A stretch of 64,000 nucleotides of DNA from Streptomyces candidus. Its GTDB lineage: Bacteria > Actinomycetota > Actinomycetes > Streptomycetales > Streptomycetaceae. Below, in pieces: positions 5,291 to 44,704 of this stretch. Every line of letters begins with the position of its first letter. Position 1 is the stretch's first letter. The position numbers and the translations under genes are program-made. The notes under the pieces are model-generated. The model worked only from the letters and a program-made list of their open reading frames with translations, ran no database searches and had not been told where the DNA came from. The DNA is taken from positions 1-64,000 of the forward strand of contig NZ_JACHEM010000005.1 in the NCBI RefSeq assembly GCF_014207445.1. The letters run 5' to 3'.

Positions 5291-5523
5291 CCCACCGCCG
5301 CTGAACAGCACGGTGCCGGCAACAGCCGCGCCGGCACGTCGGCCTCCCCGGCCCGTGTGCCGTCCCAGGCGTTGGCGTCGAGCCCGGGGTCGGCGGGGCA
5401 TCGGCGTCGGCGAGCGACGGGCCAGGGGGTGCCGGTGTGCGCGCCCGCCGGACCGGATGCGACCATCACGGGCGTGCGGGGGGCACGAGGGGTACGGCGT
5501 ACGAAGGGCGAGAGGTGGGGAGG

Positions 5524-6093
5524 ATGGCCGACGGCTGGCCGGACGTACCCGGCGATACGGCGCTCACCCTCCGGGTCCCGGAGGCCGATCCGCTGGTCCG
5601 GGCCGGATTCCCCGCCCATGTGACGGTGCTCTATCCCTTCGTGCACGAGAGCCGGATGGACGCCGCGTTCCGCCGTGAACTCGCCGGCCTCCTCGGCGGC
5701 CACGACGCGTTCACCCTCACCCTCGCCCGGTTCGACCGCTACCCCGGCGTGCTCTACCTCGACCCGCGACCGCACGCCCCGGTACGGGCCCTCACCGAGG
5801 ACCTCACCCGGCGCTGGCCCGAGGCCGTCCCGTACCGCGGCATCTTCGGCCCCGGACTCGCCCCCCATCTGACCATCGCCAACAACGAGGGCCCCGCCAC
5901 CCAGGACGCCGCGTACGACGCACTGGAGCGCGAGCTCGCCCCGCTGCTGCCGCTGACCTGCCGCATCGGCACGGTCCAGCTCATCGCCTGGGACGGCGAA
6001 CGCTGGCAGGACCGGGCCGGGTACGCCCTGCGTCCGGCCCCGCCCGGCCCGCCCCGGGGCCGGCGGCGGCATGTTCCCGCGGGAAGCATTTGA
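5524..6093 (+). CDS. 2'-5' RNA ligase / 2H phosphoesterase-like protein
   Basis: The 189-residue protein shows the two H-x-T/S motifs that define the 2H phosphoesterase superfamily: HVTVLYPF near residue 34 and HLTIANNEG near residue 117. These supply the paired histidines that act on cyclic phosphate or 2'-5' linkages. Between them lies FDRYPGVLYLDPRP, a typical substrate-face strand. The physiological substrate of the actinobacterial members is not established. ATG 5524 is preceded by GGTGGGGAG; the frame is open upstream to 5437 but those residues are low-complexity and not family-like. The stop TGA abuts the next open frame. Confidence 0.75.
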   Translation: MADGWPDVPGDTALTLRVPEADPLVRAGFPAHVTVLYPFVHESRMDAAFRRELAGLLGGHDAFTLTLARFDRYPGVLYLDPRPHAPVRALTEDLTRRWPEAVPYRGIFGPGLAPHLTIANNEGPATQDAAYDALERELAPLLPLTCRIGTVQLIAWDGERWQDRAGYALRPAPPGPPRGRRRHVPAGSI

Positions 6094-6168
6094 GTGGTGG
6101 GCGGTCGCCGCCCGGCGCGCCTGGCACGCGAAGTGCGGTCCGCTCACGACCGTGACGATGTGATCATC

Positions 6169-9394: not shown

Positions 9395-10537
9395 TCACTG
9401 AGGCGGCTCAACACGGACACGGGCGGACGGGCACGCACGTACGAGCGTCCACCCGCCTGCCCGGACGGGACCTGCGGCCGGACGGCCGCCCTCGGCGCCG
9501 GGTCGGCCAGGAACCGCCGCTGGTCGTCCAGGAGTCCGTCGGCGAAGAGCGCGCGGGGGGCCAGGAGTGCCGTGAGGGCGAGTCGGGGCCCGGAGTCCTC
9601 CACGGACTTCCGCACCATGGAGTGGGCGGCGTCCGGGTAATGGCGGACCGTCAGGGCGCCGCCCGGGTCCAGTGCGGCGCGGTAGCCGCGTTCCGTGTCG
9701 GCGGTGTCCACGTTGAGGTCCTGGCCCGCGAGCGCCAGCAGCACGGGCACTCCGCGCAGGGCGCCCAGGTCGCGGGTGGCGTCCGCGGTGTAATTCCTGG
9801 AGACGAAACCCCAACGGGCGGCTGTCATACCGTCCGTGTCGCCGTCCACCGCCCCCCACGTACTCCTCGAAGGTCGCCCGGCGCTCCAGCAGTCGGCGGA
9901 CGGTGTCGCTCCGGGCGACCGCGGCCCGGATGCGGGACTCGGACGCCCCCTCCGCGCGCAGCGTCGCGAGCAGGTGATGACGGCCCTGCCGGAGCCAGTT
10001 CACCGCGGGTGACACCGCGACGACGAAGCCCACCCGTGTTCTCGCGGCGGCCTTCGGCAGGACCCAGCCCGCCTGACTGGCACCCCACAGGCCGATCCGG
10101 TCGCCGTCCACGTCGGGGCGGGCGCGCGCCCAGGCGACCGCGGCGGCCACCTCGTCGGCCCGGTCGTCCATCGACTGGGCGAGCCAGTTGCCGGGCGCGC
10201 CCGCGACGCCGGGCTTGTCCCACGACAGGGTGGCGTATCCGGCGCGGGCGTTCGCCTCCCACAGGGGTTTGTAGCCGTCGTCGTGGGTGGCGTTCACGGG
10301 GCCGTCGCCGTGCACGAACACGACCAGGCCGTGCCGGGCGCGGCCGTCCTCGGGGGTGGTCAGTACGCCGTGCAGGGTGTGGCTGCCGTGCCGGATCGTG
10401 ACCCGCTGCTCCGTCATGGCGTACGAGTGCTGCCACAGGACCACCCCGGCGAGTCCGGCGGTCACGACCAGTGCCGTGACGAGCGTGACGACGACGGACC
10501 GCCGACCGCGTCGAGGGGAACGGGACTTCGGGCACAT
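9395..10537 (-). pseudogene. Alpha/beta hydrolase, split by a one-base frameshift
   Basis: From ATG 10537 the frame encodes a membrane-anchored alpha/beta hydrolase: the helix SVVVTLVTALVVTAGLAGVV, then VVFVHGDGP and the nucleophile elbow LWGASQAGW, up to FEEYV. At the run of six C on the plus strand (9852-9857; six G in the coding strand) the frame breaks and ends uselessly at 9395. Removing one G joins it to GDTDGMTAARWGFVSRNYTA, then LALAGQDLN (the likely catalytic Asp) and HYPDAAHSM (the likely catalytic His). As written, the product lacks two members of the triad. The rescued frame has no stop before it runs into the downstream HTH gene, so a second lesion is possible. Either a sequencing error in a homopolymer or real inactivation would explain it. 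Confidence 0.7.
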
Positions 10538-10588
10538 GGGATCGGGCCGCCTCTGTTCGGGTCTGTCTGCTTCCGAGCTGCCGACGAG

Positions 10589-10628
10589 AACTATCGTTTC
10601 CGGCACGACCGTTTGGCAAGTGATAGTT
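10589..10628. promoter_or_regulatory. Divergent promoter region with AACTATC/GATAGTT repeat
   Basis: AACTATC at 10589-10595 and GATAGTT at 10622-10628 form an inverted repeat in the short gap between the minus-strand hydrolase and the plus-strand GNAT gene. Both halves are AT-rich islands in a GC-rich background and could include -10 elements for the two divergent promoters. It is a candidate operator, possibly for the nearby PaaX-like regulator; the symmetry is the only evidence. Confidence 0.4.
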
Positions 10629-10671
10629 TTGGGGCGTGAGGACGACGGGACCGACAAGAACGGGGAACGCC

Positions 10672-11331
10672 ATGGCACCGGACACGACGCACGCCGACGC
10701 CCGCGCCGGAGGCACCGGGCCGGTGACGGTGCGGCGCGGCCTCCCGGCGGGCACCGAGCGGCGGGCGGCAGAGCTCTACTGGGAGGCCTTCGGCCGCAAA
10801 CTCGGCCCCGCCCTGAACCCGCCGGACAAGGCGGTCCCCCTTCTCGCCGCCCATCTGCACACCGACCGTGCGGTGTGCGCCCTCCTCGACGGCCGACTCG
10901 TCGGCTTGGCCGGCCACCAGCTCGACGGCCGGGCCCTCACCGGCGGCACGGCCGCCGACGTCCTGCGGGCGTACGGGCGCCTGCGCGGCCTGCCCCGGCT
11001 CCTCCTCCTCGCCCTGTTTGAACGCCGCCCCGCCCCCGGGCAACTCGTCATGGACGGCATCGCCGTGGACCCGGCGGTACGCGGCCGCGGCGTCGGAAGC
11101 CTGCTCCTCGCCGAGACGGCCGCAGTGGCGGCCGAGCACGGCTGCCGGGAGGTCCGGCTGGACGTCATCGACACCAACCCCCGCGCCAGGGCCCTGTACG
11201 AGCGGTGCGGCTTCACGCCCGTACGGACGGTGCGCACGCCGTACCTGCGCGGACTGCTGGGGTTCGGCGCGGTCACCACCATGCGCCGCCCCGTCCCGGC
11301 CGCCGCCCCGAACCGGGAGAACGGCTCGTGA
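10672..11331 (+). CDS. GNAT family N-acetyltransferase
   Basis: The 219-residue product has one GNAT fold with GIAVDPAVRGRGVGSLLLAE (motif A, the acetyl-CoA pyrophosphate loop) and DVIDTNPRARALYERCGF (motif B), followed by the C-terminal strand. The N-terminal PVTVRRGLPAGTERRAAELYWEAFGRKLGP is typical of small-molecule or peptide acetyltransferases of unknown substrate. ATG 10672 gives MAPDTTHAD; an in-frame GTG at 10636 is possible but lies close to the divergent promoter elements. Its last codons overlap the start of the PaaX-like regulator (GTGA), so the two are translationally coupled. Confidence 0.75.
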   Translation: MAPDTTHADARAGGTGPVTVRRGLPAGTERRAAELYWEAFGRKLGPALNPPDKAVPLLAAHLHTDRAVCALLDGRLVGLAGHQLDGRALTGGTAADVLRAYGRLRGLPRLLLLALFERRPAPGQLVMDGIAVDPAVRGRGVGSLLLAETAAVAAEHGCREVRLDVIDTNPRARALYERCGFTPVRTVRTPYLRGLLGFGAVTTMRRPVPAAAPNRENGS

Positions 11332-33419: not shown

Positions 33420-34361
33420 ATGAGGGCGATACCGCAGCAGTTCGTACGGAGCACCGTCGGCCGTGAGGGGGAGGCCGGTACGGCCTGGCTCGCCGAACTA
33501 CCCCGGATCATCGAGGACTTGCTGGAGCAATGGAAGTGCGTGCCGGACGGCGAGATCCTGCACGGCGGCGTCGGCGTGGTCGTGCCGGTACGGCGGCCGG
33601 GCGGGGAACGAGCCGTGCTGAAGGTGTCGTTCCCGCATCCCGGCAACGTCCACGAACCGGACGCGTTCCTCGCATGGGGTGGGCGCGGTGCCGTCCGGCT
33701 GCACGAGCGCGACGACGAGCGGTTCGCGATGCTGCTGGAACGAGCCCGGCCGACGACGCTGGCGCAGGCCGCGGCCGGCACGGACGGCGACGGGATGCTG
33801 GAGGCCGCCGGGCGGCTGCACCGCCGCCTGACCGTCCCCGCGCCGCCCGGCCTGCCCCGGCTGTCCGGGCAGGCCGGTGCGTGGGAGGAACAACTGTGGC
33901 GTGACGCCGCGGAGTTGACGCACACGCTGCCGCGCCGGACGCTGGACGCCACCGCGGCGACCGTCCGGGAACTGGGCGCGGTCCAGCCCGACACCCTCCT
34001 GCACGGCGACTTCCACGCCGGGAACATCCTGCGTGCCGACCGGGAGCCGTGGCTGGCCGTCGACCCCAAGGGGTACGTCGGGGACCCCGCCTACGACGCC
34101 GGCACTCTGCTCAAGGCCCGCGCGCTCGCCCTTCTCGAAGCGGACGACCTGCACAAGGCCGTCCATCACGCCCTGTCCGTCTTCGCCGACGCGGCGGAAC
34201 TCGACCGCGAACGCGTCCGGCGGTGGGCCCAGTTCCACGCCGTCCGCGCCGCGTTCTGGGGCCGCCGCCATGGCTTCCGCATCGCCAGGAGCGGACCGCA
34301 ACTGGACTGGCTGACCGCGTTCGCGGACCGCCTGGGCGAGTTGCTGGGCGACACCCCGTAG
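33420..34361 (+). CDS. Aminoglycoside 6-phosphotransferase / hydroxyurea-kinase-like protein
   Basis: The 313-residue kinase-fold protein has GGVGVVVPVRRPGGERAVLKVSF (ATP-binding Lys), then LLHGDFHAGNILRADREPWLAVDPKGYVGDPAYDAG. This is the Brenner motif with catalytic Asp and DPKG metal-binding Asp, characteristic of the APH(6)/hydroxyurea phosphotransferase family (Pfam PF04655). Members O-phosphorylate streptomycin at the 6-hydroxyl or inactivate hydroxyurea. Which applies here cannot be read from sequence. It ends 19 bases from the converging rph stop, so two antibiotic-modifying genes share a 3' junction. ATG 33420 has only a weak upstream ribosome binding site. Confidence 0.78.
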   Translation: MRAIPQQFVRSTVGREGEAGTAWLAELPRIIEDLLEQWKCVPDGEILHGGVGVVVPVRRPGGERAVLKVSFPHPGNVHEPDAFLAWGGRGAVRLHERDDERFAMLLERARPTTLAQAAAGTDGDGMLEAAGRLHRRLTVPAPPGLPRLSGQAGAWEEQLWRDAAELTHTLPRRTLDATAATVRELGAVQPDTLLHGDFHAGNILRADREPWLAVDPKGYVGDPAYDAGTLLKARALALLEADDLHKAVHHALSVFADAAELDRERVRRWAQFHAVRAAFWGRRHGFRIARSGPQLDWLTAFADRLGELLGDTP

Positions 34362-34380: not shown

Positions 34381-37068
34381 TCAGGGGAGGAGTTCGACGT
34401 AACCGTCCGTTCCGTGCACGCGGATGCGCCGACCGTCGCGGATCAGGCGGGTGGCCGATTCCACGCCGACGACGGCGGGCAGGCCGTACTCCCGCGCGAT
34501 CACCGCGCCATGGGTCATCGGGCCGCCGACCTCCGTCACCAGGCCCGCGATGCCGACGAACAGGGGCGACCAGCTCGGGTCCGTGAACGCGGTGACGAGG
34601 ATGTCGCCCGGTTCCAGGTCGGCGTCCGCCATGTCGAGCACGACACGGGCCCGGCCCTCGATCGTTCCCGCGGATACCGGTACGCCGGCCAGTGCGCCGT
34701 CGGGCACGTCGTCGCGCCGGTACGCCCCGGTGAGGGCCTCGCCGTCGGAGGTGAGCACCCGGGGCGGGGTCAGCGCGTGGTACGCCCGGAACGCCTCCTT
34801 GCGCTGTTCGACGAGCCTGGGGACCACCCGGTGGGTGCGGACGGCCTCGTGCAGTTCCTGGAACGTGAGGTGGAAGGCGTCCTCCCGGTCCGGCAGCACG
34901 CCCGCCCGTACGAGCCGGTCGGCCTCCGCCAGCAGAGCCTGCTTGTAGACGAAGTAGCGGCTGATGATGGCGTACTTCGGGTACTCGCGGTATCCGATGA
35001 AGGTGCGCACCCGGTCGATCATCCGCCGGGTCTCGTCGGCCTTGCGTTCCCCCTCCGGCAGGGCCCGCAGCCGGGCGAGCACGTCCCGCTCCTTCGCCTG
35101 CGCCCGGTGCAGCCCTTGCGCGAAGTGCCGGGCGGCGGCGCCCGGTTCGAAGTTCCGCACGTGGTCGAGGATGACGGGTACGAGCGTGCTGGGGCGTTCG
35201 CGCCAGCGCGGCCTGGTGATGTCGATCTCGCCGGCGCAGCGCATGCCGTAGCGGTCGAGGTAGGCGCCGATCGCGTCGCGCGCCCCGGCCCCGCCGGGGA
35301 GCTCCGCCAGCCCGTCCAGGAAGTCCTCGTCGTCGATGTTTCGGAGGTACGCCACCACTTCCGGGTGCGGACGGACCGCGTCCGCGACATCGAGCAGGGA
35401 GAGCCCCATCCGGGACGTGATGTTGTCGGGGGCGGACAGGGTGAGCGTGTCGGCGGCGTTCTTCTCCCCCAGCCACTCCTGGAGCTTGTCGTTGAGCCAC
35501 CAGGTGGCCTCCGTCCCCGCCATGATCACCTGCATGCTCAGCGGGTCGCCGAGGACCCGCTTGTGCTCCTCGAAGGCCTCCAGCAGGAAGTCGAACAGCG
35601 CCGGTCCGCTCTTGGTGCGGATGTCCCGCTCCAGGGCGGCGACGGACGCCTCGCTCCGCTCGATCAGCCCGGTGACGATCGCCGGGTCGGTCTCGATCGG
35701 GGCGGGCGCCCCGCCGGCCGGCGGGCGGGCGGGGGCCGGGTCCGGGAGCACCGGGACGACGTCGCCGCGGTCCAGGACGGTCTCCAGCGCGTCCCTGATC
35801 AACGGGTCGGCCTTCCCCATGGCGTCCAGGAGCCCGGCCCGGCCCGCGGGCGATGCCAGGCGCGCGGCGACGTCCACGAACAGCCGGCCGCCCGCCTCCT
35901 GCATCGGCACCAGGGCCGTCAGCTGCCACATGGAGGACCCGAGGGACTTCATGGGATCGGTCATCATCTGCCCGTGGCCGACGGAGACGTAGAGGTGATT
36001 GTCCTGGTCGGCGGCGTCGGGAACGGGGAACAACGTGGTGATCGGGCGGCTCTGCACGATCTGGAAGTCCTCGTCGGCCACACACCACTCGATGTCCTGC
36101 GGGCGACCGAAGTGCGCTTCGATGCGCCGCCCGAGCTGTGCGAGCCGTACGACCTGCTCGTCCGTCAGGGCAGGCAGCCGCTGTTCGTGCGCGTCGAGGA
36201 CCACTTCTTGCGTACCGCCGCCCGGCAGTGCCCGTACGGCGCGCCGCTTGGCGGCGATCGTCCGCTCGACGATCTCGCCCCCGCGCACCTTGAAGACGTC
36301 CGGGTTCACCAGGCCGGAGACCAGCGCCTCGCCGAGGCCGAAGCCCGCGTCGACCGTGGTGACCTTGCGGTTGCCCGTGACGGGGTCGGCCGTGAACAGG
36401 ATGCCGGACGCTCGGGGGACGACCATCCGCTGCACGACCACCGCCATGTGGACCGCTCGGTCGTCGATGCCGTTCCGCCGGCGGTAGGTCACCGCCCGTT
36501 CGGTGAACAGGGACGCCCAGCACCGGCTGACGTGCCCGAGGACCGCTTGGGTCCCCACGACGTTGAGATACGTGTCCTGCTGACCGGCGAAGGACGCCGT
36601 CGGCAGGTCCTCCGCCGTCGCGCTGGAACGTACGGCACAGGCGGCCTCCTCGCCGTGCCGGCCGAGTGCACCGGTGATCGCCGCGGTGAGTTCGTCCGGG
36701 AGCGGGATCGCCTCGATCGTCCGGCGGATCTCCGCGCTGAGCGTGCGCAGCGCCTCCCGGTCGTCCGGAGCCACGCGTGCCAGCCGGTCGAGCCGGGCGG
36801 CGACGGGCGGCGCCTGCGCCACCGTCCGCCGGAAGGCCTCCGTCGTCACGCAGAAGCCCCCGGGTACGCGGACGCCGTCGATCCGCGACAGCGCGCCCAG
36901 GTGTGCGCCCTTGCCGCCGACGAGGGCGAGTTGCGTCCCGTCGACCTCGTGGAGGTCCACCACGTACCGGTGGGGGGCGGCGTCCCCCGCCGGGCGGGCC
37001 TGTTCCGCCGTACCGCGTGGTGCGTTCGCGTCACCGCTGCCCTGCGTCCTGCCGGACTTCCCGTGCAT
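34381..37068 (-). CDS. rph: Rifampin phosphotransferase
   Basis: The 895-residue enzyme has the three RPH modules. The N-terminal ATP-grasp domain (LVGGKGAHLGALSRIDGVRVPGGFCVTTEAF; SSATAEDLPTASFAGQQDTYLNV; IEWCVADEDFQIVQSRPIT) is followed by a central rifamycin-binding helical region (about residues 400-780) and a C-terminal swivelling His domain with GGPMTHGAVIAREYGLPAVVGV carrying the phospho-His. It converts ATP, rifampin and water to 21-phosphorifampin, AMP and phosphate. The rifamycin-associated element at 37167-37186, about 100 bases upstream, supports a true rifamycin-inducible RPH rather than PEP synthase or pyruvate phosphate dikinase, which share the modules but have PEP-binding domains. 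Confidence 0.9.
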   Translation of the reverse strand: MHGKSGRTQGSGDANAPRGTAEQARPAGDAAPHRYVVDLHEVDGTQLALVGGKGAHLGALSRIDGVRVPGGFCVTTEAFRRTVAQAPPVAARLDRLARVAPDDREALRTLSAEIRRTIEAIPLPDELTAAITGALGRHGEEAACAVRSSATAEDLPTASFAGQQDTYLNVVGTQAVLGHVSRCWASLFTERAVTYRRRNGIDDRAVHMAVVVQRMVVPRASGILFTADPVTGNRKVTTVDAGFGLGEALVSGLVNPDVFKVRGGEIVERTIAAKRRAVRALPGGGTQEVVLDAHEQRLPALTDEQVVRLAQLGRRIEAHFGRPQDIEWCVADEDFQIVQSRPITTLFPVPDAADQDNHLYVSVGHGQMMTDPMKSLGSSMWQLTALVPMQEAGGRLFVDVAARLASPAGRAGLLDAMGKADPLIRDALETVLDRGDVVPVLPDPAPARPPAGGAPAPIETDPAIVTGLIERSEASVAALERDIRTKSGPALFDFLLEAFEEHKRVLGDPLSMQVIMAGTEATWWLNDKLQEWLGEKNAADTLTLSAPDNITSRMGLSLLDVADAVRPHPEVVAYLRNIDDEDFLDGLAELPGGAGARDAIGAYLDRYGMRCAGEIDITRPRWRERPSTLVPVILDHVRNFEPGAAARHFAQGLHRAQAKERDVLARLRALPEGERKADETRRMIDRVRTFIGYREYPKYAIISRYFVYKQALLAEADRLVRAGVLPDREDAFHLTFQELHEAVRTHRVVPRLVEQRKEAFRAYHALTPPRVLTSDGEALTGAYRRDDVPDGALAGVPVSAGTIEGRARVVLDMADADLEPGDILVTAFTDPSWSPLFVGIAGLVTEVGGPMTHGAVIAREYGLPAVVGVESATRLIRDGRRIRVHGTDGYVELLP

Positions 37069-37317: not shown

Positions 37318-37362
37318 GTTGCCAGAAGGCAACGAAGTGAGGGAAGGTTGCTCAAAGGCAAC
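37318..37362. promoter_or_regulatory. Two tandem GTTGC(N6)GCAAC palindromes
   Basis: GTTGCCAGAAGGCAAC at 37318-37333 and GTTGCTCAAAGGCAAC at 37347-37362 are inverted repeats with the same orientation, 29 bases apart (just under three helical turns). They lie 52-96 bases before the phosphatase start. TTGCC...GGCAA resembles MarR-family operators, and the last gene of this operon encodes a MarR protein, so autoregulation is plausible. Confidence 0.65.
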
Positions 37363-37413
37363 GTTCCCGTCGAGTTGATGAGGTGAGGGATTCGCGCAGC
37401 GGATCCTCGTTAT

Positions 37414-39069
37414 TTGGGTTTCAGCCAAGCGCAAACCGTCGCAGCACCGAAGCCGGCCTTCCCGTGGGACCGTGCCCCCTACCCGGTCCTGGTCGCCGAC
37501 GCCCGTGACGCCGTCGTCCAGCGCAATGACGCCGCCCGAGCCCTCCTGCCCGGGGCGGACCCCGGCGCACCGTTGGCCGCCGTGGCCCCGGCCTGGCTCG
37601 CCGAGGCGCACCGCTCCCTGCGGAGCGCAGGCCCGCACACCGCCCCCGAAGCCGACGCACCGCACCGCGGCGAGATCGCCGGGCGCCACTACGAAGCGCA
37701 TCCCGGCGTGCGGGACGACGGCGCGGTCGCGTGGTGGCTCGTCGACGACACCGACCGCCACCTTGCCCGCGAGGCGCTGCACGTCGAGCGGGAGCGCACC
37801 GCGTTCCTCGCCGAGGCGTCCAATGTCCTGCTCTCCTCGCTCAACCTGGGGCGCTGCATGGACGTCACCGCGCACATGGCGGCCGAGCACCTCGCCGACG
37901 CGGCGCTCGCCATCGCGCCGTCCCGCGGTCACCGGCTGCCCGTGGTCACCTGCGTGCGCGGCGGCACGCCCGTCCTCTCGCAGGAGACCATGGACCCGGA
38001 CGACGTACCGGGCCTCGGCGAGGCGCTGCGCGGATTCCCGCCGGTGCCCTCGCGCTGGATCGACCCCTCGACGGCACCGGAGTGGATGGTTCCCGGGGAC
38101 TTCGGTCCGGTCGGCTCGATAGTGATCACCCCGCTGCCCGGCCACGGCGTCGCCGCCGGTGCCCTGGTCCTGCTCCGCAGGGCCGACAGCACCGCCTTCA
38201 CCAGCGAGGAAGAGGTCTTCGCCCGCCTCTTCGCCGCCCGCTCGGGCGCCGCGATGTCGGCCGCCCGTCTCTACGCGGAGCAGACCGCCCTCACCGAAGT
38301 CCTCATGCGGGAACTCCTGCCGCCGACCCTGCACCAGATCTCCGGGGTGGACTTCGCCGGGCACTACCGCCCCTCGGCGGACGACGAGCGGATCGGTGGC
38401 GACTTCTACGACGTCCACCCCGCCCCCGTGGAGGGCGAGGCGTCCCTGGTCGCCCTCGGGGACGTGTGCGGCAAGGGTCTGGAGGCCGCCGTACTGACCG
38501 GCAAGATCCGCAACACGCTGCACGCGCTGCTGCCGCTGGCCGACGACCACGAGCGGATGCTGAACCTGCTCAACACGGCACTGCTGAACTCCCAGCACAC
38601 CCGGTTCGCGACCCTGGTCCTGGCCTCCGCCGTGCGCCGGGGCAGCGAGGTGGACCTGAGGCTCACCAGCGGAGGGCACCCCGCCCCGCTGATCGTCCGC
38701 GCGGACGGCAGCGTGGAGGAGGCGGACACCCGCGGCACCCTGGTCGGCGCGATGCCCAAGGTCAGCGCCCGGACCGCGCAGCTCACACTCGGGCCGGGCG
38801 AGTCCTGCGTGCTGTACACCGACGGCATCACCGAGGCCAGGGGCGGTCCCATGGGCGACGCCCAGTTCGGTGAGGAACGCCTCAAGCGGGCGCTGGCCGA
38901 CTGCGCGGGCATGCCGTCGGAGGGAATCGCGGAACACGTCCAGATGCTGGCGGCGCAGTGGCTCGGCAACCGGCGGCACGACGACATGGCCGTCGTCGTC
39001 ATCTCCGCGCCTCGAACCCACCACCTGAGTGCGGTGGACGGCCACACCCGGGGCAGGTTCACCGCATGA
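37414..39069 (+). CDS. SpoIIE/PP2C-type serine phosphatase with PAS- and GAF-like sensor domains
   Basis: The 551-residue product has a PAS-like segment (APYPVLVADARDAVVQRNDAARALLPG, about 20-110). A GAF-like domain follows (TAFLAEASNVLLSSLNLGRCMDVTAHMAAEHLADAALA, about 130-290). The SpoIIE phosphatase domain spans about 310-535, with acidic metal ligands in ERIGGDFYDVHP, VALGDVCGKGLEAA and RRHDDMAVVVI. This is the RsbU/RsbP layout: such enzymes dephosphorylate STAS anti-sigma antagonists in partner-switching pathways. Its stop overlaps the start of the B12-binding gene (ATGA), and a STAS gene follows. The start is unclear: TTG 37414 is the only usual start in frame before the PAS region, and GAGGTGAGGG lies further upstream at about 37379. 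Confidence 0.8.
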   Translation: MGFSQAQTVAAPKPAFPWDRAPYPVLVADARDAVVQRNDAARALLPGADPGAPLAAVAPAWLAEAHRSLRSAGPHTAPEADAPHRGEIAGRHYEAHPGVRDDGAVAWWLVDDTDRHLAREALHVERERTAFLAEASNVLLSSLNLGRCMDVTAHMAAEHLADAALAIAPSRGHRLPVVTCVRGGTPVLSQETMDPDDVPGLGEALRGFPPVPSRWIDPSTAPEWMVPGDFGPVGSIVITPLPGHGVAAGALVLLRRADSTAFTSEEEVFARLFAARSGAAMSAARLYAEQTALTEVLMRELLPPTLHQISGVDFAGHYRPSADDERIGGDFYDVHPAPVEGEASLVALGDVCGKGLEAAVLTGKIRNTLHALLPLADDHERMLNLLNTALLNSQHTRFATLVLASAVRRGSEVDLRLTSGGHPAPLIVRADGSVEEADTRGTLVGAMPKVSARTAQLTLGPGESCVLYTDGITEARGGPMGDAQFGEERLKRALADCAGMPSEGIAEHVQMLAAQWLGNRRHDDMAVVVISAPRTHHLSAVDGHTRGRFTA

Positions 39070-40217
39070 GCACCAGCACCCCCTCCAGACTCCCCGGCCG
39101 CACCGGGCCCGCCGAGTGGGCGGAGCAGTTGTGGAACGCCGTGTCCGTGGCGGACGAGCGCGCCGCCACCGCGGTCGTGGCGCGCGCCCTCGACGAGGGC
39201 GTCGGCCCCGAGAGCGTCCTGCTGGACGTCATCGCGGTGGTGCAGGCCAGGGTCGGCGTGGAATGGGCGGCCAACCGGATCGGCGTGGCCCAGGAGCACG
39301 CCGCGACCGCCATCAACGAACGGGCCGTCGCGGCCCTCGGCACCCATCCCGCCGCCCGCGCCACGCCCTCGGGACGCCGGATCACGGTGGCATGCGCCGA
39401 CGGCGAATGGCACGCGCTGCCCGCCCGCCTGCTGGCGGAGGTCCTGAAGCTCCGGGGCTGGCAGGTCGACTACCTCGGCGCCCAGGTCCCCGCCCCGCAC
39501 CTCATCGCCCACCTGCACACCACGCACGCCGAAGCGGTCGCCCTGTCCGGCTCGATCGCGACCCGGCTGCCCACCGCGCACGCGGCGATCACCGCGTGCC
39601 AGGCCATCGGGGTGCCCGTCCTCGCCGGCGGGGCCGCCTTCGGCCCCGAGGGCCGGTACGCGACGCTGCTGGGCGCCGACGCCTGGGCCCCCGACGCCCG
39701 CACCGCGGCCGACCTGCTGGCCCGCGGTCCGCTGCCGCGCCCGAACCCCGACCACCAGCAGCTGGACGACCTGCCGCACCTGGCCGATCAGGAGTACACG
39801 CTGGTCACCCGCAACAGCGACTCCCTGGTACGGGCCGTCTTCACCGCTCTGCACGACGCCTTCCCCGCCGTCCGCTCCTACGACGACCTCCAGCGCGAAC
39901 GCACCGCGCAGGACCTCGCGCACATCGTGGAGTTCCTCGCCACCGCCCTCTACCTCGGCGATGAGGAACTGTTCACCGGTTTCGTCACCTGGACCGCGCG
40001 GATCCTCACCGCACGCGCAGTGCCCGCCCAGAGCCTGCCTCCGGCCCTGGACCTGCTGGCCCATGAGCTCAAGGACTTCCCGCGGGCCGTCCGCCTGCTC
40101 GGCTGCGCGGCACACGCTCTGACCGCCGGAACCGCCACGACGGCCCCCACCGCCACGGACCGCACGGGTACCGATCACCCCGTTACCGACCAGCCGACAG
40201 CCGGGAAACCCGCATGA
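39066..40217 (+). CDS. Stand-alone B12-binding sensor with CarH-like W-x9-EH motif
   Basis: The 383-residue protein has no DNA-binding domain. Residues about 15-95 form a helical bundle containing EWAANRIGVAQEHAA: Trp67, nine residues, then Glu77-His78. This is the W-x9-EH motif that caps adenosylcobalamin in CarH photoreceptors. Residues about 104-225 are a cobalamin-binding Rossmann fold with GEWHALPARLLAEVL, where His116 is the likely lower axial ligand, and LSGSIATRLP. The C-terminal helices (about 240-350; LAHIVEFLATALYLGDEELF then VTWTARILTARAVP) resemble the helical sensor half of RsbR-type stressosome proteins. It is coupled by ATGA overlaps to the PP2C gene before it and the STAS gene after it. 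Confidence 0.85.
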   Translation: MSTSTPSRLPGRTGPAEWAEQLWNAVSVADERAATAVVARALDEGVGPESVLLDVIAVVQARVGVEWAANRIGVAQEHAATAINERAVAALGTHPAARATPSGRRITVACADGEWHALPARLLAEVLKLRGWQVDYLGAQVPAPHLIAHLHTTHAEAVALSGSIATRLPTAHAAITACQAIGVPVLAGGAAFGPEGRYATLLGADAWAPDARTAADLLARGPLPRPNPDHQQLDDLPHLADQEYTLVTRNSDSLVRAVFTALHDAFPAVRSYDDLQRERTAQDLAHIVEFLATALYLGDEELFTGFVTWTARILTARAVPAQSLPPALDLLAHELKDFPRAVRLLGCAAHALTAGTATTAPTATDRTGTDHPVTDQPTAGKPA

Positions 40218-40630
40218 CCTCGCTGCCCGCCGCCCCCCTGCGCCTGACCACGAGCGACTCCGCACACCGGGTCCGCATGGAGCTCCACGGCGACCTCGAC
40301 CACGACCACGCCGACCTCCTCCTCGCCGAGGTGGACCGTCAGCTGGCCGCCCGCCCGCACCTGCGGGACCTGCACCTGCACTGCGGCGGAGTCACCACCG
40401 TCGACTCCCTGGGCCTGTCCGTACTGCTGATGGTCCACCGGCGGACCGCCGCGGCGAAGGTACGTCTGCACCTGGACGACCGGTCCGAGAGACTGGACCG
40501 CCTGCTGGACGTCACAGGTACCCTCGAATACCTCACCACGGCGTCGTCCCCCACCGGCACCGCGGGCTCCTCGGAAGCCGAGGAGCAACAGGCGGCGGCC
40601 CGCCCCACCGGGCCGGAGAGCCACCACTGA
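40214..40630 (+). CDS. STAS-domain anti-sigma factor antagonist
   Basis: The 138-residue protein is a single STAS domain (about residues 8-105), with RMELHGDLDHDHADLLLAEVDRQL and the phosphorylation-loop motif GGVTTVDSLGLSVLLMVHRR, in which Ser in DSLGL is the probable phosphosite. A disordered Glu/Pro-rich tail follows. ATG 40214 overlaps the B12-binding gene stop. In partner switching an unphosphorylated antagonist binds an anti-sigma kinase and frees the sigma factor; the upstream PP2C would activate it. No HATPase anti-sigma kinase is encoded in the window, so the partner is elsewhere. Confidence 0.87.
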   Translation: MTSLPAAPLRLTTSDSAHRVRMELHGDLDHDHADLLLAEVDRQLAARPHLRDLHLHCGGVTTVDSLGLSVLLMVHRRTAAAKVRLHLDDRSERLDRLLDVTGTLEYLTTASSPTGTAGSSEAEEQQAAARPTGPESHH

Positions 40631-40681
40631 GCCACTGCCCCGCCGACCCCTGGGCAGAAGCACCCACCCGACCGGGGAGCC

Positions 40682-41197
40682 ATGCCTTCACCAGACGCCG
40701 TCCCCAGCACGATCAGCGAGGACGCCACCCGGTCCGCCGGCACCATCGCCGAGTTCCTCGACGTGATGTGGGAGCGCGCCAGGGACTCCACCGCGCAGGC
40801 GACCGCTCCCGTCTCCACGTCACAACTGCGCCTGATGTACGTCGTCGACCGCCAGGACGGCATACGGATGCGGGCGGTGTGCCAGCTCCTGGCCTCCTCG
40901 CCGCCGAACGTGACCCGCATGTGCGACCGCCTCCAGGCCATCGGCTTCGTCGAACGGCTGCCGTGCCCCGGCAGCGGGCGCGAGATCACCCTGCGACTGA
41001 CCCCCTCGGGCAAGAGACACCTGCGGCGCATCCGCGAGCAGCGCGAGACGATGCTCCACCGGGCCATCGACAACATGCCTGTGGACGAACGCCGCGCCCT
41101 GGCCACCGGGCTCGCCGGGCTCGCCACCCAGCTCACCGCCGCCTCCGACGAGGATCTGAGAAGCCCCGTGAGGCCCGGTCGGCACCCGGCTGCCTGA
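40682..41197 (+). CDS. MarR-family transcriptional regulator
   Basis: The 171-residue protein has the MarR winged helix: STSQLRLMYVVDRQDGIRMRAVCQLLASSPPNVTRMCDRLQAIGFVERLPCPGSGREITLRLTPSGKRHL (about residues 42-115), flanked by dimerisation helices. ATG 40682 follows CCGGGGAGCC, 51 bases after the STAS stop on the same strand, so it is likely the last gene of the PP2C-B12-STAS operon. The paired GTTGC(N6)GCAAC palindromes upstream of the operon are candidate operators. A hairpin follows the gene. Confidence 0.85.
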   Translation: MPSPDAVPSTISEDATRSAGTIAEFLDVMWERARDSTAQATAPVSTSQLRLMYVVDRQDGIRMRAVCQLLASSPPNVTRMCDRLQAIGFVERLPCPGSGREITLRLTPSGKRHLRRIREQRETMLHRAIDNMPVDERRALATGLAGLATQLTAASDEDLRSPVRPGRHPAA

Positions 41198-42952: not shown

Positions 42953-43963
42953 TCAGTGCGGTGCGCCCGGTGGCAGCAGCATGTCCAGGGCCTCGCGGAG
43001 CCCTCGCGGGCGCAGGGCCCCCGCCAGGTGCGGGCCGGCCCAGCCGGGGCCCGCCAGCATCATGGCGGGGCCGGTCCTGGCGCCCCGTACCCCCCAGGTG
43101 ATCGAGCCCAGGTGCTGGGCGAGCGGACGGCTGGCGGTGCTCCGCGCCTGGGACCACAGCACCACGGTGCCCGGCCCCGTCCTGCGCACCGCCTCCTCCA
43201 GGGCCGGCACCGGAACCGAGGCCCCGAACATGCTCACCGCCACGTCCCGTTCGGCCAGTGCCGCCGCCAGCGCCTCCAGCGGCAGGGTGTGTATCTCCCC
43301 GGGTACGCACGCGAGCAGCACCGGCGGGGACGACGGGCGCGGCGTGCGGTCGGCGGGGGGTGGGGCGCTGCGCGCGAGCACCCGGGAGACGTGCCAGGAC
43401 AGGAGGTGCTCGACCTCCACGTACCGGTCGCCCGAGGTCTGCCACCTGCGGCCCACCGAGTGCAGCGCGGGCATGATCACGTCGTCCCAGGCCGCGACCA
43501 GTCCGCGTTCCGCGATCGAGGCCGTCAGCAGCCGGTCGACGGCGGGTGCGTCGAGCCGGGCCGCCGCCCGGGTGAGCCCCCGGGACTCGGCGAGCGGGCG
43601 GGACAGGGACCGGGCCGCCGGACGGGTGCGGCCGGGGGCGGGCGTGGTGGAGGGGGCGTCGGCCGGGTCGTCGCCCGGGGCGGTGCCCGTCGCGGGCGGG
43701 CCGGACGGTGCCGCGAGCGCGGCGCGGGCCGCTTCGGCGGGCGGGACGCCCGATGCGGTCAGGCGGCACATCCGCTCCAGCACTTCCACGTCGCGGGCTT
43801 CCCACCGCCTGTGCTGCCCGCCCTTGCCCGCCGGACCGATGCCGTAGCGCCGGTGCCAGGTGCGCAGCGTCGTCGGGGCGACCCCGAGACGACGGGCGAC
43901 CGCACCGGTGCTCAGCGCCGCCGCGGCGGCGCCGACCGGTTCCCTTACGGGCGAAGAACTCAT
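42953..43963 (-). CDS. litR: LitR, MerR-type B12-binding light-response regulator
   Basis: The 336-residue protein has a MerR-type helix-turn-helix (LSTGAVARRLGVAPTTLRTWHRRYGIGPAGKGGQHRRWEARDVEVLERM, about 17-70). A Pro-rich linker leads to a helical bundle with RRWQTSGDRYVEVEHLLSWHVS, then a cobalamin-binding domain with LACVPGEIHTLPLEALAAAL, where the His is the axial ligand. It fits LitR, the adenosylcobalamin-dependent repressor that controls carotenoid synthesis in Streptomyces. In this copy Trp is separated from the Glu-His pair by ten residues, not the nine of CarH. It is divergent from litS, 96 bases away, and beside the crt genes. Confidence 0.9.
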   Translation of the reverse strand: MSSSPVREPVGAAAAALSTGAVARRLGVAPTTLRTWHRRYGIGPAGKGGQHRRWEARDVEVLERMCRLTASGVPPAEAARAALAAPSGPPATGTAPGDDPADAPSTTPAPGRTRPAARSLSRPLAESRGLTRAAARLDAPAVDRLLTASIAERGLVAAWDDVIMPALHSVGRRWQTSGDRYVEVEHLLSWHVSRVLARSAPPPADRTPRPSSPPVLLACVPGEIHTLPLEALAAALAERDVAVSMFGASVPVPALEEAVRRTGPGTVVLWSQARSTASRPLAQHLGSITWGVRGARTGPAMMLAGPGWAGPHLAGALRPRGLREALDMLLPPGAPH

Positions 43964-44059: not shown

Positions 44060-44704
44060 GTGGGGGTGCGTGTGGAGGCGGTGGCGGTCGACGTGCCGGC
44101 GGGGGAGACGGCCGAGGAGTGGGAGGGCATCGCGCACGGCCTGGTGCGCGGGGACGAGCAGAGTCTGGCGGCGGCGTACCGCAGGTGGGGCGCGCTGGTG
44201 CACGGTCTCGCCTCCCGCGCGCTCGGCGACGCCCGGGAGGCGGAGGACGTCACCCAGCAGGTGTTCCTCGCCGCCTGGCGCGGACGCGGCGGCTACCGGC
44301 CCGACCGCGGCCCGCTGGCCGCCTGGCTGGTGGGCATCACCCGGCACAAGACCGCCGACGCACTGGCCGCGCGCGCCCGCCGTGCGGAGGTGGCCGCCGC
44401 GGTCGGGGTGTCCGCACCCGCTCCGGCCGCCGACTTCCGGCAGGACGACCTGCTCGACCGGGTCCTGGTCGCCCAGGAGTTGGCGAAGCTGCCCGAGGCC
44501 CAGTACCAGGTGCTGCGCCTGGCCTTCTACGGCGACTTCCCGCAGAGCCAGATCGCCGCCCTCACCGGCCTGCCGCTGGGGACGGTCAAGAGCCACTCCC
44601 GGCGCGGACTGGCCACCTTGCGCGCCGGTCTTGCGGGCAGCTTCGGCAGGGTGCCCGCCGCGAGGACGGCGTCCGAGGAGGCGCGCGCCAAGACCGACGC
44701 ATGA
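44060..44704 (+). CDS. litS: LitS, ECF sigma factor
   Basis: The 214-residue product (with GTG 44060) has sigma region 2 (LVRGDEQSLAAAYRRWGALVHGLASRALGDAREAEDVTQQVFLAAW, about 20-70). Region 4 follows (LPEAQYQVLRLAFYGDFPQSQIAALTGLPLGTVKSHSRRGLATL, about 145-190). Its place directly divergent from litR and next to crtY identifies it as LitS, the light-induced sigma factor that transcribes the crt genes. Several in-frame GTG codons (44060, 44066, 44072, 44081) compete as starts and none has a well-spaced ribosome binding site, so the exact N-terminus is uncertain. Confidence 0.87.
   Translation: MGVRVEAVAVDVPAGETAEEWEGIAHGLVRGDEQSLAAAYRRWGALVHGLASRALGDAREAEDVTQQVFLAAWRGRGGYRPDRGPLAAWLVGITRHKTADALAARARRAEVAAAVGVSAPAPAADFRQDDLLDRVLVAQELAKLPEAQYQVLRLAFYGDFPQSQIAALTGLPLGTVKSHSRRGLATLRAGLAGSFGRVPAARTASEEARAKTDA

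Follow-up and report, generated by a model that had tools for sequence, protein, structure and literature searches.

In the first 64,000 nucleotides of contig NZ_JACHEM010000005.1 of Streptomyces candidus (assembly GCF_014207445.1, forward strand; this whole stretch is hereafter called the window), an operon encodes a PPM/SpoIIE-type Ser/Thr phosphatase of the PP2C family, a cobalamin (B12)-binding protein of the photocobilin family and a STAS anti-sigma antagonist. This operon is probably a light-input module of RsbU/RsbV/RsbW-type partner switching, in which the signal would pass from the photocobilin to PP2C and then to STAS. Observed are the gene order, the identity of the domains, the cofactor, catalytic and phosphorylation-site residues, the linkage of the genes, and relatives that add a kinase and a sigma factor; cofactor binding by this photocobilin, its contact with PP2C, the sign of the light effect and the identities of the kinase and of the sigma factor are the parts that we infer. 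The genes, all on the + strand, encode PP2C (37414..39069, 551 aa, TTG start; Pfam SpoIIE, 137.9 bits), the photocobilin (39066..40217, 383 aa; Pfam B12-binding and B12-binding_2), the STAS protein (40214..40630, 138 aa, with a D-S-x-G-L phospho-Ser motif; Pfam STAS/STAS_2, TIGR00377) and finally a MarR-family regulator (40682..41197, 171 aa; Pfam MarR/MarR_2). An ATGA overlap joins the PP2C stop to the B12-gene start at 39066, another joins the B12-gene stop to the STAS start at 40214, and a gap of 51 nt lies between STAS and MarR; the initial annotation had placed these reading frames, with their strand, overlaps and gap, correctly.

By sequence and by predicted structure, the B12 protein is a full-length photocobilin, a member of a family that binds adenosylcobalamin (AdoCbl) and biliverdin (PMC10979010). 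Its best phmmer match among solved structures (8j2x/8j2w, E 8.5e-82, 278.6 bits, residues 19-354) is SasPcob, the standalone photocobilin of Saccharothrix syringae (8J2W/8J2X; Zhang et al. 2024, PMC10979010), to which it is 46-47% identical over the full length; 8j2y comes next at 1e-37, and CarH reaches only 44 bits. In its predicted model (predicted local distance difference test score, pLDDT, 83.5), a four-helix bundle (B12-binding_2), a Rossmann B12 domain and a bilin-binding globin follow each other in one chain, a domain order and fold common with SasPcob, which occupies Foldseek ranks 1-3 (template modelling score, normalised on the target, 0.91-0.92), ahead of AbPcob at ranks 4-5. The initial annotation had rightly described a B12 photosensor devoid of a DNA-binding domain, no MerR-type domain being found at the N-terminus by either Pfam or the predicted model, but it had assigned this sensor to the CarH type, with C-terminal helices of the RsbR type. 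The structure comparison leads to a photocobilin fold instead, and the helices belong to a bilin-binding globin; what is left of the RsbR likeness is the distant homology reported between photoglobins and the RsbR globin (PMC10151467).

A B12-only photoreceptor of the CarH type, carrying RsbR-like helices and using MarR as part of its output, would account for the W-x9-EH and ExH motifs and for a weak match to the CarH model. Indeed, the B12 half has the four-helix bundle, the Rossmann domain and both motifs in common with CarH and LitR. It is nevertheless highly improbable, as the photocobilin match is far stronger in both sequence and fold (fold-match E 7e-25 vs 2e-8 for CarH), the bilin pocket is conserved, most loci are without MarR, and the position of CarH His132 is occupied by Ala. 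This upper-ligand position, which we take to be the residue directly after the conserved W, is Ala in 81 of 82 sequences and Gln in SasPcob, and the light state would therefore be expected to have water as ligand, like that of SasPcob, rather than the bis-His ligation of CarH. CarH and LitR thus differ from the window protein by their DNA-binding domain, their lack of a bilin globin and this residue.

The residues devoted to the two cofactors are invariant. In SasPcob, AdoCbl is held by Trp61, Glu71-His72 and His108, and biliverdin by Asp270 and Trp296, His137 of the other subunit contacting the bilin (PMC10979010). The window protein contains both the AdoCbl pocket (W67, E77-H78, and the lower-ligand ExH motif E114-W-H116) and the biliverdin pocket (D283, W309 and H145, equivalent to Asp270, Trp296 and His137), and all eight residues (W67, E77, H78, E114, H116, H145, D283 and W309) are identical in the 82 sequences compared, namely the window protein, SasPcob and 80 relatives. 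The Trp67-x9-Glu77-His78 and ExH motifs first noticed in the window protein alone are thus kept throughout, without any loss of W-x9-EH in orthologues. In AbPcob, a His replaces the bilin-binding Asp and biliverdin binding is poor (PMC10979010); as the window protein keeps Asp283, it should be of the kind that binds biliverdin well. Judging from these residues, it would be expected to bind both cofactors. A heme oxygenase, source of biliverdin, is encoded in the source genome. Among 150 Streptomyces genomes, about one third (52) contain a photocobilin gene, and heme oxygenase is found in 50 of these 52 and in 89 of the 98 others; being nearly as common without photocobilin, it was rejected as a discriminating partner.

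The linkage to PP2C is nearly constant. Scanning 84,980 species genomes with the window photocobilin led to 80 loci (designated here by L numbers). A profile detects PP2C immediately upstream, in the same orientation, in 76 of them, and BLAST detects fragments of it in three more; L018 alone is without it. A STAS gene is directly downstream of the photocobilin gene in 59 of the 80 loci, and the PP2C-photocobilin-STAS order is also present in annotated plasmid records. When 396 genomes of the phylum were drawn independently, the 7 full-length photocobilin loci inspected from the class Actinomycetes all had PP2C immediately upstream. The linkage of the B12 gene with PP2C and STAS genes is therefore conserved, and the four-gene unit initially proposed holds for its first three genes. 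MarR, downstream in 13 of the 80 loci and confined at this position to the nearest relatives, was rejected as a core component and is a local add-on. The photocobilins nearest to that of the window are 76-79% identical to it and nearly all from Streptomyces. No fusion of photocobilin to STAS or to PP2C was found among the loci read. Two other arrangements were observed: a tandem PP2C-photocobilin-PP2C-photocobilin duplication (L081, ~2.6-9.1 kb) and, in another class of the same phylum, a single chain composed of B12 domains, an unassigned stretch, a GAF domain and an ANTAR RNA-binding domain (L131:823-2775), a possible light-controlled antiterminator.

The phosphatase has the traits of the RsbU/RsbP type, with a SpoIIE/PPM domain, metal-binding Asp residues and, before them, a linker helix and a sensor region. 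Its model (pLDDT 83) predicts a PAS domain (~25-111), a GAF domain (~145-256) and a long linker helix (264-300), followed by the phosphatase domain, and its best fold match is the RsbU domain of Rv1364c (3ke6). Asp 330, 350, 470 and 523/524 are invariant in 25 orthologues. Pfam matches neither PAS nor GAF in the window PP2C, and matches GAF in 18 and PAS_4 in 7 of the 25 orthologues; together with the predicted model, these matches bear out the PAS/GAF-like domains of the initial annotation. Of 13 near relatives, 12 begin their PP2C gene with TTG and one (L005) with GTG; no obvious Shine-Dalgarno sequence lies close to the start. As for the STAS protein, it has the phosphorylatable Ser in D-S-x-G of an RsbV/SpoIIAA-type antagonist. 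This Ser, whose position was set by comparison with SpoIIAA, is kept in the window and in 51 of the 59 linked STAS proteins, which supports a phosphorylation cycle.

Precedents exist for each side of the proposed contact. RsbU and RsbP are both activated by partner proteins through the part of the chain that precedes the PPM domain (PMC12143880, PMC3183031): the partner of RsbU makes the linker form an ordered coiled coil (PMC12143880), and the target of RsbQ is the PAS domain of RsbP (PMC3183031). Photocobilins, for their part, regulate a diguanylate cyclase in trans through protein contact (PMC10979010). The simplest chain therefore goes from light to photocobilin, PP2C linker, STAS, HATPase and sigma factor. 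The standalone photocobilin would bind AdoCbl and biliverdin, and green light acting on B12, or red light acting on biliverdin coupled to B12, would lead to cleavage of the Co-C bond and break the photocobilin dimer. The changed photocobilin would then bind or release the PAS-GAF-linker part of PP2C, altering the phosphatase activity, and PP2C would remove the phosphate from the STAS protein of the operon, from STAS proteins with genes at other sites, or from both. Once dephosphorylated, STAS would capture an anti-sigma kinase of the HATPase kind whose gene lies at another place in the genome, so as to free a sigma factor of the SigB/F type or some other client of the HATPase, the likely output being carotenoid/photo-stress genes. 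In which direction light would act cannot be predicted, because the effect of SasPcob on the cyclase was reversed in the absence of biliverdin (PMC10979010).

Among known systems, this arrangement resembles, on the phosphatase side, RsbQ-RsbP and RsbT-RsbU of Bacillus subtilis, in which a separate partner also stands beside or acts on a PPM phosphatase with a sensor or helical linker that dephosphorylates RsbV, a STAS protein; there, however, the partners are hydrolase and kinase-like proteins and not a photoreceptor. On the photocobilin side, the photocobilin-diguanylate cyclase fusion AbDPcob (8J2Y) is similar in that a photocobilin module controls an enzyme dependent on assembly state, but its GGDEF domain is fused, a His replaces the bilin-binding Asp and bilin binding is weak, whereas PP2C is separate and Asp283 kept in the window. 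For SasPcob itself, an interaction with STAS/SpoIIE/PP2C had already been predicted (PMC10979010). Its partner link is a prediction only, whereas here the PP2C/STAS operon is explicit and conserved across many actinomycetes.

Relatives supply the downstream parts. In an Amycolatopsis locus (L015), STAS, HATPase, PP2C, photocobilin and STAS genes overlap or abut, the first three overlapping, and in L053 a HATPase gene, a SigB/F-type sigma gene, PP2C, photocobilin and STAS are followed by crt (carotenoid) genes. One Streptomyces clade has HATPase and CbiZ genes upstream of PP2C, often with crt genes further downstream. CbiZ is an adenosylcobinamide amidohydrolase of B12 salvage; its gene stands between the anti-sigma-type HATPase gene and PP2C, on the same strand as both, in about a dozen loci, among them L036 (CbiZ at 5446-6126) and L040 (5466-6179). 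On the photocobilin tree, the upstream HATPase linkage needs 4 changes and the crt linkage up to 9, and these links therefore do not go back to one inherited event. Photocobilin and crtY (lycopene cyclase) genes co-occur in 40 of the 150 Streptomyces genomes vs ~25 expected, with a p-value (4.5e-7) that is optimistic, as these genomes are related and not phylogenetically independent. In Streptomyces griseus (L008), a SigB-like gene (10138-11262, - strand) is located between the PP2C-photocobilin-STAS-MarR operon and crtY, where the window has LitR and LitS. According to PMC5993118, Lee et al. (2001) described a SigB-like factor for carotenoids in this species, and the L008 gene is possibly that factor.

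The CbiZ genes, and the finding that S. avermitilis needed external B12 to respond to light through LitR (PMC12705666), would also fit a photocobilin that senses the supply of B12 or bilin (or redox), and not light, and sets PP2C accordingly. We find this rather improbable, since W67, E77, H78, D283 and W309, which serve light chemistry in SasPcob, are kept without exception and the operon is repeatedly found beside carotenoid genes, while the CbiZ linkage fits equally well a light sensor in need of AdoCbl.

Several observations weigh against the light-driven control of a sigma factor through PP2C and STAS. Firstly, the window contains neither a HATPase nor a SigB/F factor, so that the downstream end of the chain lacks local parts. 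A HATPase_c_2 profile search of the genome gave ~48 proteins above the cut-off, none of them in the window, and a search for SigB/F factors gave about nine close homologues, all elsewhere; a kinase or sigma target encoded within the window was thus rejected. The complete partner-switching set is not found together in the window, the kinase being present in L015 and both kinase and sigma factor in L053. Of the wiring initially proposed, the connection of the sensor to PP2C and STAS is supported by the conserved linkage, and sigma-factor control in the source genome is plausible. Secondly, outside the class Actinomycetes, PP2C adjoins photocobilin in none of the 13 inspected loci, indicating that the PP2C link is lineage-specific. 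Thirdly, 14 Streptomyces loci that form one clade keep PP2C and photocobilin, but either the STAS protein has lost its phospho-Ser (L036, L042, L054, L057, L058, L061, L063, L065) or its gene is absent (L040, L047, L055, L056, L060, L077); HATPase and/or CbiZ genes are present in nearly all of them and the crt linkage is mostly kept. The linked STAS protein is therefore not an obligatory PP2C substrate everywhere, and in this clade PP2C must use another STAS protein or the output must have changed.

This same loss argues that PP2C, and not STAS, is the direct partner of photocobilin. It bears on a stressosome-like alternative, in which the photocobilin globin would work with the STAS protein of the overlapping gene as a split RsbR, and PP2C would only reset STAS, like RsbX. 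The photoglobin homology to RsbR mentioned above, the overlap of the photocobilin and STAS genes in the window and the adjacent STAS gene of 59 loci are in its favour. We consider it unlikely, since the near-invariant partner is PP2C and not STAS, one clade keeps PP2C and photocobilin although its STAS gene is missing or has lost the phospho-Ser, no locus read has fused photocobilin to STAS, and PP2C, unlike RsbX, has a PAS-GAF-helix input region of its own. In addition, sensor and STAS are separate chains here, unlike in RsbR, Pfam detecting no STAS domain in the window photocobilin, and the globin has a bilin pocket.

The role of standalone photocobilins was called less clear in their 2024 description (PMC10979010). 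Both the family and, in outline, its STAS/SpoIIE/PP2C link in Saccharothrix are already known from that work; new are the conservation counts, the invariance of the cofactor residues, the kinase, sigma, CbiZ and crt linkages, the natural loss of the phosphorylatable Ser of STAS, and the sites upstream of the operon described below. With one partner, PP2C, beside photocobilin at almost every actinomycete locus examined, the question of this role becomes a defined biochemical test, and culturable strains exist for such loci (S. griseus type). One tentative possibility, which we put somewhat below an even chance, is that photocobilin acts via the partner-switching phosphatase on a SigB/F-type factor for carotenoid/photoprotection genes, so that LitR (blue-green) and photocobilin (green to red) would converge on one crt locus, with the SigB-like factor of S. 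griseus as a natural output. More generally, light control of this operon would bring red/green light in among the inputs of general-stress-type sigma control.

Upstream of PP2C, the window contains an operator-like palindrome, GTTGCC-AGAA-GGCAAC (37318..37333, no strand), a second copy with one mismatch, GTTGCT-CAAA-GGCAAC (37347..37362, no strand), whose position is the best conserved in relatives, and a strongly conserved leader, GATGAGGTGAGGGATTCGCNCAGCGGRTCCTC (37377..37408, + strand), directly before the TTG start. In near relatives, 26-32 of the 32 leader positions are kept at a fixed distance to the start, with 0 expected in shuffles; a structured RNA was rejected, as the leader folds no better than shuffles (z 1.16). 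Of 79 regions upstream of PP2C, 25 contain the palindrome family GTTGYC-N4-GRCAAY, whereas locus density would predict 0.3; other clades and loci without MarR are among them, as is L053, where the palindrome has paired changes (GTTGTC...GACAAC). As a genome-wide regulon marker it was rejected: single sites (28) are no commoner than those of the reversed control pattern (41), and therefore only the upstream-region enrichment counts. The palindrome is probably the operator of some further regulator, MarR being one candidate in the window clade.

Downstream of the operon come a DoxX gene, a NUDIX gene, a LitR-type photoreceptor gene with MerR and B12 domains (42953..43963, - strand) and a LitS-like ECF (extracytoplasmic function) sigma gene that adjoins crtY (44201..44704, + strand, true start slightly further upstream), followed by the carotenoid genes: crtY, methyltransferase, amine-oxidase-type and polyprenyl synthase genes. 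The litR/litS neighbourhood noticed initially is thus found 1.8-3 kb downstream, beside the crt genes, and LitR is a light pathway separate from the photocobilin operon. On the other side, a divergent gene (34381-37068, - strand) with PPDK_N and PEP-utilizers domains, whose product is phosphoenolpyruvate synthase-like or rifampicin phosphotransferase-like, has its intergenic region in common with the operon, and an aminoglycoside/hydroxyurea phosphotransferase-like gene (APH_6_hur, 33420-34361) also lies upstream of the operon.

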